Of a stretch of 42,114 bases of DNA, positions 6,459-16,613 are shown piece by piece; within the stretch, counting starts at the first letter, position 1; each line of letters opens with the position of its first letter. The notes beneath the pieces were generated by a model, which was given only the letters and a program-made list of their open reading frames with translations, ran no database searches and had not been told where the DNA came from. The stretch covers positions 1 to 42,114 of the forward strand of contig NZ_BCNS01000201.1 of the NCBI RefSeq assembly GCF_001528745.1. The letters are read 5' to 3'. Both the position numbers and the translations under genes were made by a program. This DNA is from Marinobacterium profundum. Lineage in GTDB: Bacteria; Pseudomonadota; Gammaproteobacteria; Pseudomonadales; Balneatricaceae.

Positions 6459-7316
6459 CTAGCTTTCTTCTTCGGCTTCGCGCAAACGTTCCTGGCGAGC
6501 CTGTTCCTCGGCAAACACCGATTTGATCTCGTCCAGTACCGCATCCACATCGGCACTTTCGGTGCTTTCGGCGAACTCGCCGGTCAGCTCGATATCTTCG
6601 TGCAACTTGCCGTCTTCGTACAGCGCCCAGATTTCCTTGGCATAACGGCTACCGAGCAGTTCGGGGGCGAACTGACTGTAGTAGTGGGTCATGTTGTCGA
6701 CGTCCCGCGCCAGCATCGATTGGGCGTGGTTGTTAGCCGCCGCATCCACCGCCTGGGGCAGGTCGATGATCACCGGGCCGTATTCATCCACCAGAACGTT
6801 GAATTCCGACAGATCTCCGTGCACGACGCCGGCGCAGAGCATGCGCATCACGTAGTTCATCAGCAGGGCGTGGTCTTCCAGCGCCTGCTCGGCAGACATG
6901 GAAACATCACTCAGACGCGGCGCGACATCGCCGGCTTCGTCCGTGATCAGTTCCATCAGTAGCACGCCATCTGTGCAGCCATAGGGCTGAGGCACGCGCA
7001 CACCGGCCGCTGCCAGCCGATAGAGAGCATCGACCTCGGCGTTCTGCCAGGTTTCTTCCTGCTGCTTGCGGCCGAATTTCGAGCCCTTTTCCATGGCGCG
7101 GGCGCGGCGGCTGTTCTTGACCTTGCGGCCTTCCTGATAATTGACCGCCTGCTTGAAGCTGCGTTTGGTGGCTTCCTTGTAGACCTTGGCACAGCGTATC
7201 TGGGTGCCGCAGCGCACCACATAGACGTCGGCTTCCTTGCCGCTCATCAGCCGGCTGATCACTTCATCCACCAGGCCGTCTTCGACCAGGGGCAATATGC
7301 GTTTGGGAGTTTTCAT
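6459..7316 (-). CDS. RIO-type serine protein kinase
   Basis: A 285-aa RIO1-like atypical protein kinase. Visible motifs are the flexible ATP loop SGKEADVYVV (25-34), likely lysine K44 in CAKVYK, the catalytic loop VVHGDLSEFNVLV (164-176, with D168 and N173), and the metal-binding IIDLPQAVD (183-191, D185). A basic insert of about residues 50-90 (KVKNSRRARAMEKGSKFGR) and an acidic, glutamate-rich tail follow the pattern of the bacterial PA4780-type proteins. In eukaryotes and archaea RIO kinases act in small-subunit maturation; the bacterial role is not established. It starts at ATG 7316. Confidence 0.87.
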   Translation of the reverse strand: MKTPKRILPLVEDGLVDEVISRLMSGKEADVYVVRCGTQIRCAKVYKEATKRSFKQAVNYQEGRKVKNSRRARAMEKGSKFGRKQQEETWQNAEVDALYRLAAAGVRVPQPYGCTDGVLLMELITDEAGDVAPRLSDVSMSAEQALEDHALLMNYVMRMLCAGVVHGDLSEFNVLVDEYGPVIIDLPQAVDAAANNHAQSMLARDVDNMTHYYSQFAPELLGSRYAKEIWALYEDGKLHEDIELTGEFAESTESADVDAVLDEIKSVFAEEQARQERLREAEEES

Positions 7317-7548
7317 GGCGCCCTGTTACCTGAACCAGGGGCTGGATGGAACAGCGCCGCCTGTATAGGCCAGCGGGGAGGGGTGGAACAGCGGCATCCA
7401 GTAGACTCCTTGACGAAATGGGACCTGACTGCGGGACTGGCCCGCAGCAGGGTGTCTGAGTTTAACACCGCAGTGCAGCAGGCTTCGACCGCCGGATGCC
7501 GAAACCGACGGTTTTTTCAGTATTTATTGCTCCGCGCAGGTTTGAGCG

Positions 7549-8361
7549 TCACTGTGCGCCAAAGATGAAGGCCGATTGCACGCTGCCCATGACCCTGTCT
7601 TCAAACACTTTCAGGCCCGGATCTTCGCCTGCGGCACCGGCTATAACGTGCAGCGGCAGCAAATGTTCCTCCGCCGGGTGAGATGCCCGGCCGCCCGGCG
7701 CCTGGGCCCAGTTGCCAAGGCGCTGTTCGCGCTCGGCCCGGGGTAGGGTTACGGTCTCGGCCAGCCAGTGGTCAAAACGTATCGAGTCGGAATCAGGCTG
7801 AGCGCCGCCCTGACGCAGGCGCTGCATGTTGTGAAAGCTCATGCCGCTGCCAATAATCAGCACGCCCTCATCGCGCAAGGGCGCCAGTGCTCGGCCAAGC
7901 GCAAGATGCTCGGCAGGTTCAAGGCCTGTGCGCAGCGACAGCTGCACCACAGGGATATCAGCATCGGGAACGGCAAGCTTGAGCGGGATGAATACGCCGT
8001 GGTCCAGCCCGCGTTTGTGCTCCTGAGTACAGGGGATGCCGGCGCTGGCGAGCTGCGCCTGAATGCGGCCCGCCAGTTCAGGGCTGCCAGGGGCCGGCCA
8101 TTTGAGCTGATAGGTATGGGCGGGGAATCCGTAATAGTCGTACAGCAGGCCTGGTGTGGCCTGGGCATTAACGCTGAACTGCGGCGCCTCCCAGTGGGCG
8201 GAAATCACCAGCAGAGCTCTGGGGCGAGTGTCTAGCTGGCGTATAAAGTTGCGCAGCCAGGCTTCCATATGATCCCAGGTGCCGGCCGGGGGCCAGTCCA
8301 TGAAAAAGCACGGGCCGGCGCCGTGGGGAATAAATATGCTGGGCAAGCGTGGTGGGCTCAT
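7549..8361 (-). CDS. DODA-type extradiol ring-cleavage dioxygenase (YgiD-like)
   Basis: A 270-aa class III extradiol dioxygenase-family enzyme of the YgiD/DODA type, which cleaves catechols such as L-DOPA at the 4,5 bond. Candidate metal ligands are H13 (IFIPHGAGP), H56 (VISAHWEAP) and H232 or H237 near the C-terminus, with H121 (GLDHGVFIP) and H176 (GMSFHNMQ) as the conserved active-site histidines. The length is normal. It sits downstream of doxX but is separated from it by a strong terminator, so it likely has its own promoter. The physiological substrate is unknown. The region 7317-7548 between it and the RIO gene holds no gene. Confidence 0.85.
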   Translation of the reverse strand: MSPPRLPSIFIPHGAGPCFFMDWPPAGTWDHMEAWLRNFIRQLDTRPRALLVISAHWEAPQFSVNAQATPGLLYDYYGFPAHTYQLKWPAPGSPELAGRIQAQLASAGIPCTQEHKRGLDHGVFIPLKLAVPDADIPVVQLSLRTGLEPAEHLALGRALAPLRDEGVLIIGSGMSFHNMQRLRQGGAQPDSDSIRFDHWLAETVTLPRAEREQRLGNWAQAPGGRASHPAEEHLLPLHVIAGAAGEDPGLKVFEDRVMGSVQSAFIFGAQ

Positions 8362-8402
8362 GCAATTGTCCTCTATGGCGGCGGTGAACTGCTGCCGCCA
8401 GG

Positions 8403-8427
8403 AAAAAACAGACCCCGGCGGCGGGGT
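8403..8427 (-). terminator. Intrinsic terminator of doxX
   Basis: On the minus strand ACCCCG-CCGC-CGGGGT (8427-8412) is followed by CTGTTTTTT (8411-8403). It lies about 20 bp after the doxX stop codon and before the dioxygenase gene, so it separates the two transcripts. Confidence 0.7.
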
Positions 8428-8445
8428 GAGCAGACAGAGTGCAGT

Positions 8446-8898
8446 TTAGAACTTGAATCCAAACTGGCGATCAAGCGAGAAGCGCTCGCCACCGCGCAGG
8501 AAAACAGCAAAGGCAATCAGGCCCCACATCAACGGATATTCCACTCCGCCGCTGGTCCAGAAGAAACCGTTGGCGACATGTACCGACAGGGCTACAGCCA
8601 TCAGGCCTGCGATGGCCAGTGCCGCCGGACGGGTGAGCAGGCCCAGTACCAGTGCCAGGCCACCGAAGAACTCCACCAGGCCTGCCAGCAGGGCGAACAG
8701 GAAACCGGGCTCCATGCCAAGGTTGGTGGCGAAGAACTGGCCGGTGGCATCCAGGCCGTAACCGCCAAACCAGCCAAAGAGTTTCTGGGCGCCGTGGGGC
8801 ATCAGCAACAAGCCCGCAGTGATGCGTATCAAAGGGTAGCTTAGCGTTGACAGGCGATCGAACAGGGTGCTGGCGCTGGTAGAGGTCTGGGTGGTCAT
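8446..8898 (-). CDS. DoxX family membrane protein
   Basis: A 150-aa four-helix inner-membrane protein of the DoxX/DoxD family. The signature LLMPHGAQKLFGWFGGYG (about 32-49) and the following GLVEFFGGLALVLGLLTRPAALA are typical. Relatives are linked to oxidative stress, thiosulfate oxidation or quinone chemistry; no function can be assigned here. Start ATG 8898 follows GGAGATA. It is transcribed divergently from the lysR gene, which suggests that the regulator controls it. Confidence 0.85.
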   Translation of the reverse strand: MTTQTSTSASTLFDRLSTLSYPLIRITAGLLLMPHGAQKLFGWFGGYGLDATGQFFATNLGMEPGFLFALLAGLVEFFGGLALVLGLLTRPAALAIAGLMAVALSVHVANGFFWTSGGVEYPLMWGLIAFAVFLRGGERFSLDRQFGFKF

Positions 8899-9005
8899 GG
8901 CGTATCTCCAAATGCAGGTAAGTGGGTGTCAGCCGGTGCGCTGAAACTGGAGACCATGGTATGTTGGTTTCCCTATGGTGGGTAGAATGCAAAATAGGAA
9001 CATAA

Positions 9006-9024
9006 GGTTTCCAAATCGGGAACC
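9006..9024. promoter_or_regulatory. Candidate operator between doxX and lysR
   Basis: GGTTTCC (9006-9012) and GGGAACC (9018-9024) form a near-perfect dyad (one mismatch) around AAATC. A related GGTTTCCC (8966-8973) and AGGAAC (8996-9001) lie nearby. The position between the divergent doxX and lysR genes is where a LysR-type regulator would bind. This is inference from symmetry and position. Confidence 0.45.
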
Positions 9025-9060
9025 ATATCTACTATCCGTTAGCCATTATCAGAGAACCCT

Positions 9061-9282
9061 ATGACCTCACATATTAGCGGCGGATCTTTCAGCTTCGGCG
9101 GCATGCTTGGCGGATCTTTGGAAGACATCAAGGCGTTCTGCGCCGTGATCGAGTTTGGCTCAGTGTCACGGGCGGCTATTGCGATAATGTGGAGACCAAT
9201 CTTGGGTGCTCGAACCGGCCACGCCGGCGCCTTGGCTAGTCCGGTAGTCATTATCAGAGAATCCCATGACTTCACATATTAG
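9061..9282 (+). pseudogene. Truncated lysR copy 1 (73-aa frame)
   Basis: It encodes the first 40 residues of the LysR regulator, including the first part of the helix-turn-helix region (SVSRAAI), then 33 unrelated residues before a stop at 9280-9282. It lacks the recognition helix and effector domain, so it cannot act as a normal regulator. Its last 17 bp overlap the start of copy 2, an arrangement compatible with translational coupling. Confidence 0.7.
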
Positions 9283-9487
9283 CGGCGGATCTTTCAGCTT
9301 CGGCGGCATGCTCGGCGGCTCGCTGGAAGACATCAAGGCGTTCTGCGCCGTGATCGAGTTTGGCTCAGTGTCCCGGGCGGCAATTGCGATAATGTGGAGA
9401 CCAATCTTGGGTGCTCGAACCGGCCACGCCGGCGCCCTGGCTAGTCCGGTAGTCATTATCAGAGAATCCCATGACTTCACATATTAG
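9266..9487 (+). pseudogene. Truncated lysR copy 2 (73-aa frame)
   Basis: It encodes the same 73-aa protein as copy 1, because all 8 nucleotide differences between the two copies are silent. It ends 17 bp inside the intact lysR gene (start 9471), in another frame since 205 is not a multiple of three. Its 5' part (9266-9385) is nearly identical to that of the intact gene. Confidence 0.7.
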
Positions 9488-10430
9488 CGGCGGATCTTTC
9501 AGCTTCGGCGGCATGCTCGGCGGCTCGCTGGAAGACATCAAGGCGTTCTGCGCCGTGATCGAGTTTGGCTCAGTGTCACGGGCGGCTATTGAAATGGGTG
9601 AGACAAAGGGCAGTATCAGCCGGCGGGTATCACGGCTGGAGGCCAGGCTTGGCGCTGCACTGCTGGCCCGCACGCCCAGGGCCGTAAGTGCTACTGAGGA
9701 GGGTATCGCCTTTTATGCCAAGGCCCGGGATGCGCTCTCATTGCTGGCCGATGCTACCCAGGGGGCGCGCCAGTCTCGCACTGTGCCCCACGGCAATCTG
9801 CGGGTGACGGCACCGATGGATATTGGCCTCGATGTGTTGCCGCCGCTGTTGGTGCGGTTTCGCGCCTTGCATCCACAGATTACGGTGGAGTTGCTATTGA
9901 CGGATGCGCCGCTGGACCTGGCGGCCAACCGTATCGACCTGGCGTTGCGCGCCACCTCCGGCAATCTGCCGGACATGGGTTACCGTGCATCCGCGCTGGC
10001 AACGTTTCGCATGAGGCTTTATGCCGCCCCCGGCTACCTGGAAGCGCGGGGAATGCCCGAAACCCCACAGGATCTGCAGACCCAGGATCTGGTGACCTTT
10101 CGTGAATTGGCGGGGGCTGCGAACCTGTCCCTGGTAAACGCCAGGGGACGGCGGGTGGAAGTCACGGCAAGGCCGGTGGCTCGCACCACGGACTACGCCA
10201 GCGTGCACCGGATTATTCAGGCCGGTGGCGGTATCGGTGTATTGCCGGATCTGATTGCGGGTGCCAGTCTTGCCGCTGGTCTGATTCTGCCGGTGTTACC
10301 CGACTGGTTCCTGAGCGACGGCAAGCTCTACGCCATCAGCCTCAGTGGTGACCAGGCGCCGGCGCGGGTGAGCGTGTTTCGGGATTTTATTCGCGCCGAA
10401 CTGAATGGGCCAGTCGCTGGTACTGCCTGA
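9471..10430 (+). CDS. LysR-family transcriptional regulator
   Basis: A 319-aa regulator with an unusual glycine/serine/phenylalanine-rich N-terminal extension (residues 2-19), a winged helix-turn-helix (about 20-78, with SVSRAAIEMGETKGSISRRV) and a LysR substrate-binding domain (about 105-305, starting HGNLRVTAPMDIG). The effector domain resembles the common regulators that control neighbouring oxidoreductases or exporters; the ligand is unknown. It is divergent from doxX, its likely target. The 5' end is the third unit of the 205-bp repeat, so its own promoter region has been replaced by the repeat spacer; only a weak ribosome site (AGAGA) precedes the ATG. Confidence 0.9.
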   Translation: MTSHISGGSFSFGGMLGGSLEDIKAFCAVIEFGSVSRAAIEMGETKGSISRRVSRLEARLGAALLARTPRAVSATEEGIAFYAKARDALSLLADATQGARQSRTVPHGNLRVTAPMDIGLDVLPPLLVRFRALHPQITVELLLTDAPLDLAANRIDLALRATSGNLPDMGYRASALATFRMRLYAAPGYLEARGMPETPQDLQTQDLVTFRELAGAANLSLVNARGRRVEVTARPVARTTDYASVHRIIQAGGGIGVLPDLIAGASLAAGLILPVLPDWFLSDGKLYAISLSGDQAPARVSVFRDFIRAELNGPVAGTA

Positions 10431-15239: not shown

Positions 15240-15668
15240 ATGCTGGAAACAATAGGTTGGCGCGAGTGGCTGTCGTTGCCGGAACTGGGGATCGACCGCA
15301 TCAAGGCCAAGGTCGATACAGGTGCTCGCACATCCTGCTTGCACGCATTCAAGCTAGAACCCTTTTATGAGCGCGGTGCACTCTGGATTGCGGCTGATGT
15401 GCATCCCATACAGAACAACCAGGATACGGTGCTGCATTTTGTAGCGCCGGTACTGGACGAGCGACAGGTCTCCGATTCCGGCGGCCATCGCGAAAAGCGT
15501 ATCGTCATTCAGACTCTGGCACGTATGGGCGAGCATGAATGGCCCATTGAAATGACACTGACCAACCGTGACAGCATGCGCTTTCGCATGCTGCTCGGGC
15601 GCACTGCTATGTTGAACCGTTTTGCCGTCGACCCGGCGGCCTCATTTTTGTTAGGAGCACAGTCATGA
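15240..15668 (+). CDS. rimB: RimB-like retropepsin-fold protease (COG4067)
   Basis: A 142-aa protein of the COG4067 family, often annotated 'ATP-dependent zinc protease' but with a retropepsin-like aspartic protease fold. [13 protein letters not shown] (24-36) carries the DTGA active-site motif with D26, and MLLGRTAML near the C-terminus is the second family motif. In Pseudomonas, RimB is encoded with RimK and modulates its glutamylation of ribosomal protein S6; that role is carried over by the linkage. The stop overlaps the rimK start (ATGA), so the two are translationally coupled. Confidence 0.88.
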
Positions 15669-16570
15669 AGTTGGCAATTCTTTCCCGCAATGCGCAGCTG
15701 TACTCGACCCGTCGCATGGTTGAGGCTGCCAAGGCGCGTGGTCATGATGTGCAGGTTGTCGATGTGCTCAAATGCTACATGAATATCAATATGCAGCACC
15801 CCGAGATCCACGTAAAAGGCGAGGTTCTGAGTGATTTTGATGCGGTTATTCCCCGTATCGGCGCCTCTGTTACCTTTTACGGTACGGCAGTGTTGCGCCA
15901 GTTTGAAATGATGGGCACCTATCCGCTGAATGAATCGGTGGCGATTTCCCGCTCCCGTGACAAGCTTCGCTCCATGCAGTTGCTGTCACGCAAGGGCATA
16001 GGCCTGCCGATTACCGGCTTTGCCAACAAACCGTCCGATATCCCGGATCTGGTGGAAATGGTCGGCGGCGCACCCCTGGTGATCAAGCTGCTTGAAGGCA
16101 CCCAGGGTATCGGTGTGGTGCTGGCTGAAACCCGCCAGGCAGCTGAAAGCGTGCTTGAAGCTTTTATGGGGCTCAAGGCATCGGTCATGGTGCAGGAGTA
16201 CATCAAGGAAGCGGGCGGTGCGGATATTCGCTGTTTCGTGATCGGTGACAAGGTGATTGCCGCCATGAAGCGCCAGGCCAAGGCCGGTGAATTCCGCTCC
16301 AACCTGCACCGTGGCGGTGCTGCAAGTTTGGTGCGCCTGACGCCGGAAGAGCGCAGCACGGCCGTGCGCGCGGCCCGTACCATGGGGCTGAACGTGGCAG
16401 GGGTGGATATTTTGCGCTCCAACCACGGCCCACTGGTGATGGAGGTTAACTCTTCACCCGGCCTGGAAGGTATCGAGGCGGCTACCGGCCTTGATGTCGC
16501 TGATCGCATCATTCAGTTCCTCGAAAAGAATGCCAGCAGCCACAAGACCGGCACCCGCGGCAAAGGCTGA
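15665..16570 (+). CDS. rimK: RimK, ribosomal protein S6 glutamate ligase
   Basis: A 301-aa ATP-grasp ligase that adds glutamates to the C-terminus of ribosomal protein S6 (or makes poly-glutamate). Domain order is typical: N-terminal domain 1-95, ATP-grasp lid with [14 protein letters not shown] (about 140-153), and the metal-binding [12 protein letters not shown] (about 260-271). AGGAGCACAGTC precedes the ATG. It shares the ATGA overlap with rimB, so they are one translational unit at the end of the operon that begins at 12791. In pseudomonads the RimABK system changes ribosome composition and global translation; whether c-di-GMP enters here is unknown. Confidence 0.93.
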
Positions 16571-16578
16571 GCCTGACG

Positions 16579-16613
16579 GCGAGGTGCGAGGTGCGAGGTG
16601 CGAGGTGCGAGGT
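16579..16613 (+). repeat. Five tandem copies of GCGAGGT
   Basis: A perfect 7-bp microrepeat (five units) right after rimK, followed by degenerate GCGAGGGGCGAGG-like sequence to about 16645. It is prone to slippage. No coding role. Confidence 0.9.

Follow-up and report, generated by a model that had tools for sequence, protein, structure and literature searches.

In a known layout, a LysR-type regulator gene and its neighbour point away from each other and a palindromic site lies between the two; mosaic alleles arise from homologous recombination between related lineages. Short-homology (illegitimate) tandem duplication in bacteria yields head-to-tail copies with a fixed junction and can change gene expression; one account describes a system of selected gene duplication with designed 9-bp borders (PMC11111574). 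Here we set beside these systems the doxX-lysR locus of Marinobacterium profundum, in which two truncated lysR heads precede one intact gene (Table 1; positions refer to the window, the whole stretch of 42,114 nucleotides that was analysed). The titles and abstract openings matched by a literature search did not describe this array, a statement about those texts and not a claim that it is absent from print.

Table 1. Coordinates of the features at the doxX-lysR locus in the window.
Feature	Positions	Strand	Basis or remark
doxX-family gene, divergent neighbour with a control region common to lysR	8446..8898	-	Pfam DoxX 4.4e-19
Putative operator palindrome GGTTTCY-N5-GGRAACY, 19 bp	9006..9024	+	only complete copy near the array
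Short leader ahead of copy 1; 55 bp from operator start to ATG (G001 likewise)	9025..9060	+	
Copy 1: lysR head (40 codons), next leader and start of next head; 73-aa frame	9061..9282	+	
Long leader 1: operator-like half palindrome GGAGACC (9191-9197) and lysR leader	9183..9265	+	ATG-anchored G002 alignment
Copy 2: second truncated lysR head, identical 73-aa protein	9266..9487	+	
Long leader 2, adjoining the intact gene; half palindrome 9396-9402	9388..9470	+	99% identity to long leader 1
Copy 3: intact LysR-type regulator, 319 aa	9471..10430	+	Pfam HTH_1, LysR_substrate

Both tandem-repeat detection (TRF) and the open reading frames confirm that the lysR gene start is present three times with a 205-bp period in the given sequence, as an earlier note on this DNA had proposed. 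The repeat extends over 9035-9591 (2.7 copies, 96% matches; copy limits 9035-9239, 9240-9444 and 9445-9591), so that the array itself stands but begins 26 bp ahead of the 9061 given previously, because four differences between copies 1 and 2 (9039, 9043, 9057 and 9060) already fall within the leader, ahead of ATG 1. When the own genome, a draft of 226 contigs and 5.64 Mb, was searched with copy 1, copies 2 and 3 were recovered at E-values of 8.7e-87 and 2.1e-59, far beyond chance given a next-best match at 0.29, and no further copy of the repeat was found in this draft. The product of copy 3 is a LysR-type regulator by its two Pfam domains (HTH_1, 6.2e-16; LysR_substrate, 1.1e-36), and its best relative of solved structure is 3hhg_A (4.6e-37). 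The 73-aa products cover HTH_1 positions 1-21 of 60 alone (E 0.012; 16 bits, with a cut-off of 26.6) and, lacking a complete HTH, do not qualify as LysR-type regulators. Behind doxX and on the same strand lie genes for a LigB-type dioxygenase and a RIO1-domain protein (6459-8898 together with doxX), a possible LysR target operon. Elsewhere in the window, at 16579-16613, the heptamer GCGAGGT is repeated exactly five times just past an ORF at 15665-16570, possibly as a variable-number repeat.

Comparison of the locus in relatives, which the earlier note had suggested, returned a single gene head in each of the four that carry the ortholog (tblastn: one each in G001, G002, G003 and G006, three in the window). 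Our genus sample comprised seven genomes, the own genome included; the control region was matched in five of the seven and the ortholog is present in the same five, while G004 and G005 gave no match to either. Identity to the intact LysR protein is 95% for G003 and G001, 89% for G006 and 84% for G002. Measured from the start of the palindrome, the ATG lies at a distance of 55 bp both in G001 and at copy 1 of the window, 73 bp in G006, 101 bp in G002 and 136 bp in G003; the leader of copy 1 is of the short form and those of copies 2 and 3 are of a longer form, so two allele types occur in one array. The duplicated unit consists of the right half of the conserved doxX-lysR palindrome, the leader and lysR codons up to codon 40, and its copies are adjacent and direct, share a constant junction and form an arrangement absent from the relatives, as in partial tandem duplication. 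Half operator, leader and head follow one another in order with no foreign insert between them, an assignment for which the G002 leader is the single reference; since the alignment to that leader starts at the right half of the palindrome, the unit was contiguous at the original locus. We consider it likely that the array is an ordinary partial tandem duplication of the lysR 5' end that combines two allele types, with the 73-aa frames as by-products.

Five genus genomes (the own genome and the four relatives with the ortholog) carry the palindrome pattern in the doxX-lysR gap; in the window its two arms match except at one base. A slightly stricter pattern has no site at one mismatch or fewer in the rest of the window and a single site at two, where chance gives a mean of 0.75 sites at up to two mismatches. 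A general inverted-repeat search of 8890-9600 returned one pair (8905-8917/8941-8953) and did not list the palindrome. Position, symmetry and conservation suggest the palindrome as a site that this LysR protein may bind. From the start of the complete palindrome it is 55 bp to ATG 1 and 465 bp to the ATG of the intact gene, with only half sites lying nearer to the latter. This bears out the proposal that the array moves intact lysR away from the sequence originally upstream of it: the gene lies 410 bp further from the putative operator.

The 33 residues that follow the LysR residues in the short frames had been described as novel, but most of them come from translation of the lysR leader, and the last ones from codons of the next head. 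Anchored at the ATG, the segment between the heads aligns to the G002 lysR leader with a score of 39, compared with a mean of 12.6 (sd 5.8) for shuffles, none of 5000 reaching it. A 56-bp part of the segment scores 32 against the same leader, beyond the maximum of 26 among control stretches from the window and the four relatives' loci (0 of 894 reach it), and 13, 0 and -4 against G003, G006 and G001. The anchored alignment is not significant for the other four targets, as 1494 (G003), 2706 (G006), 2632 (G001) and 2768 (own copy-1 leader) of 5000 shuffles do as well. Unanchored local matching to G002 is weaker than the anchored test (20 of 2000 shuffles) and rests on an 11-bp exact run that in both sequences starts 42 bp upstream of the ATG; for the other leaders the corresponding counts are 588 (G003), 1092 (G006), 963 (G001) and 162 (own leader) of 2000. 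That the leader match is one of five targets tried, and that it weakens without the anchor, counts against the partial duplication that we favour. At its end the long leader is identical to the leader of the G001 ortholog for 26-27 bp, and the copy 1 leader has 4 differences in 26 over the same leader end. Searched as DNA in 56 other genomes, the segment found as its sole match this 27-bp leader end of G001, and within the own genome it has no source beyond the two array copies. Similarity to the lysR interior, sought from the left end of the unit, is not significant (350 of 2000 shuffles), and two further ideas were therefore dropped: that the segment is a diverged copy of the lysR interior, and that border homology explains the breakpoint. 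A breakpoint that shows no significant similarity of this kind is a second point against the partial duplication.

An exact 140-bp repeat (9233-9372 and 9438-9577) means that units like copy 2 were possibly miscounted by short-read assembly, and the exact copy number of the array is unproven. Two strain alleles, or collapsed repeats, could also have been wrongly joined to give the array as an assembly artefact, and the 140-bp repeat, the 226-contig draft and the occurrence of two allele types at a single locus would all be in keeping with this; the junction, however, is seen twice, flanked each time by variants specific to the copy (9168/9177 and 9232 versus 9373/9382 and 9437), and joining two alleles of a single-copy locus gives no head-to-operator junction by itself. 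We regard an artefact of this kind as quite improbable.

Copies 1 and 2 encode identical 73-aa proteins, as had been noted, and their eight coding differences (9066, 9108, 9114, 9117, 9118, 9168, 9177 and 9232) are all silent. As 24% of random changes in the 73-codon frame are silent, eight out of eight has p about 1e-5, which disfavours free drift after duplication and which the earlier note had taken to argue for selection on the short proteins. Silent-only divergence would then reflect purifying selection after duplication. Most codon differences that full-length single-copy orthologs show within these 40 codons are silent too (silent/replaced codons from copy 3: G001 11/1, G003 14/1, G002 16/1, G006 17/3), and the same holds for the relatives among themselves (7-20 silent, 1-4 replaced; G001 versus G003 7/2, G001 versus G006 19/4), so purifying selection on full-length genes suffices and selection on the 73-aa proteins is not needed. 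The 33-codon tail, derived from noncoding leader, has one of the eight differences (7/120 versus 1/99 bases, p 0.075), and because this single difference (9232) would be silent by chance with a probability of about 0.24, there is almost no evidence on the tail. With 21 of the 60 HTH_1 positions matched as a further point against it, we hold selection for the 73-aa proteins to be very unlikely. The HTH_1 stretch kept in the 73-aa product is followed, in LysR-type regulators, by the recognition helix and then the long dimerisation helix; because the rest of the HTH and the dimerisation helix are missing from it, a role as a dominant-negative LysR partner is unlikely.

The distribution of the differences also speaks against selection on the short frames. 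Copy 1 and copy 3 differ at 9 of 84 sites in 9035-9118 and at none of 63 in 9119-9181 (Fisher p 0.010, an optimistic value because the tract boundary was picked after seeing the data), and copies 2 and 3 have two base differences over their common 147 bp. The divergent tract of copy 1 takes in four noncoding leader sites, crosses the start codon and stops within the head, and its divergence of 10.7% is near that between copy 3 and G001 (13/120 bases). Because the tract spans noncoding leader and then ends, it is what would be expected of allele exchange and not of selection on a short protein. Conversion from another locus of the own genome, also raised in the earlier note, has no support, as no second copy that could act as its source was found in the draft genome. 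A better fit would be exchange with another allele or lineage. Several observations sit less easily with allele mixing. The relatives show somewhat more replacements among themselves, which makes seven silent differences out of seven a rather clean result, if not an unlikely one. The copies also show mixed affinities to the relatives: over the first 58 bases copy 1 differs from G003 at 5 and from G001 at 8, and copies 2 and 3 differ from G003 at 8 and from G001 at 7. The long-leader donor allele is absent from the sampled genomes, which offer the 27-bp identity to the G001 leader and the longer match to the G002 leader.

Each short frame does end 17 bp into the next head, the arrangement from which coupled translation had been suggested, but the overlap itself is no evidence of evolved coupling, because a period of 205 (1 mod 3) and an open leader frame together produce it. 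Such a frame is open in 34% of shuffled leaders. Translational coupling of the short frames may occur. If the short frames acted as upstream reading frames, they would pass ribosomes to lysR and, with the displaced operator, alter its dosage, array length serving as a slow switch. The 17-bp overlaps, the 465 bp between the only complete palindrome and the intact start, the 140-bp repeat, which could recombine, and the lack of a terminator-like site in 8890-9600 (no intrinsic terminator was found) agree with this reading; the account of the overlap by period and open leader, the missing arrangement in the four relatives with the gene, and the failure to locate a promoter in the same interval (no sigma-70-like promoter was found) weigh against it, and we think it unlikely. 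Very improbable, in our estimate, is the extended proposal that the array is a regulatory device in which each unit inserts an overlapping 73-codon frame and a half operator, gain or loss of 205 bp tunes or switches regulator dosage, and gene conversion keeps the frames open. A change in copy number of the array by recombination is plausible. For the displacement of intact lysR from the complete palindrome, the most likely effect would be a modest change in LysR expression.

Under the partial duplication with allele mixing, a 205-bp segment that begins midway in the putative lysR operator, takes in the leader and stops at codon 40 would have been duplicated in tandem, placing two truncated gene heads ahead of one intact lysR. 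The left end of copy 1, on the one hand, and copies 2 and 3, on the other, would descend from different full-length alleles, one with the short and one with the long leader, united by homologous exchange with a related lineage in an order of events, and with a donor lineage, that we infer. Most of the silent differences would then predate the array, having arisen in full-length alleles under purifying selection, and the 73-aa frames would be by-products in which the reading frame of the lysR head continues into leader DNA. Transcripts starting at the original control region would cross both short frames before reaching intact lysR, and expression of the regulator has probably changed. What looks like strong evidence for selection on a short protein can thus come from older differences between full-length alleles that were inherited by partial copies. 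The locus also provides a natural case in which partial copies of a regulator gene's own beginning come between the gene and its likely operator, with possible effects on expression.

Set against the described systems, the array shares with illegitimate tandem duplication its head-to-tail copies and fixed junction, and differs from the selected system in that it comprises only half an operator, a leader and 40 codons and has no significant border similarity that we could find (PMC11111574). Copy 1 resembles inter-lineage mosaic alleles in its abrupt drop from about 11% to 0% difference; unlike usual mosaic alleles, the mosaic sits inside a tandem array and its donor lies outside the sampled genomes. 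The locus as a whole keeps the known LysR layout of a divergent pair, doxX and lysR, with a conserved 19-bp palindrome between them, and departs from it in that partial copies push the intact gene away from that site.
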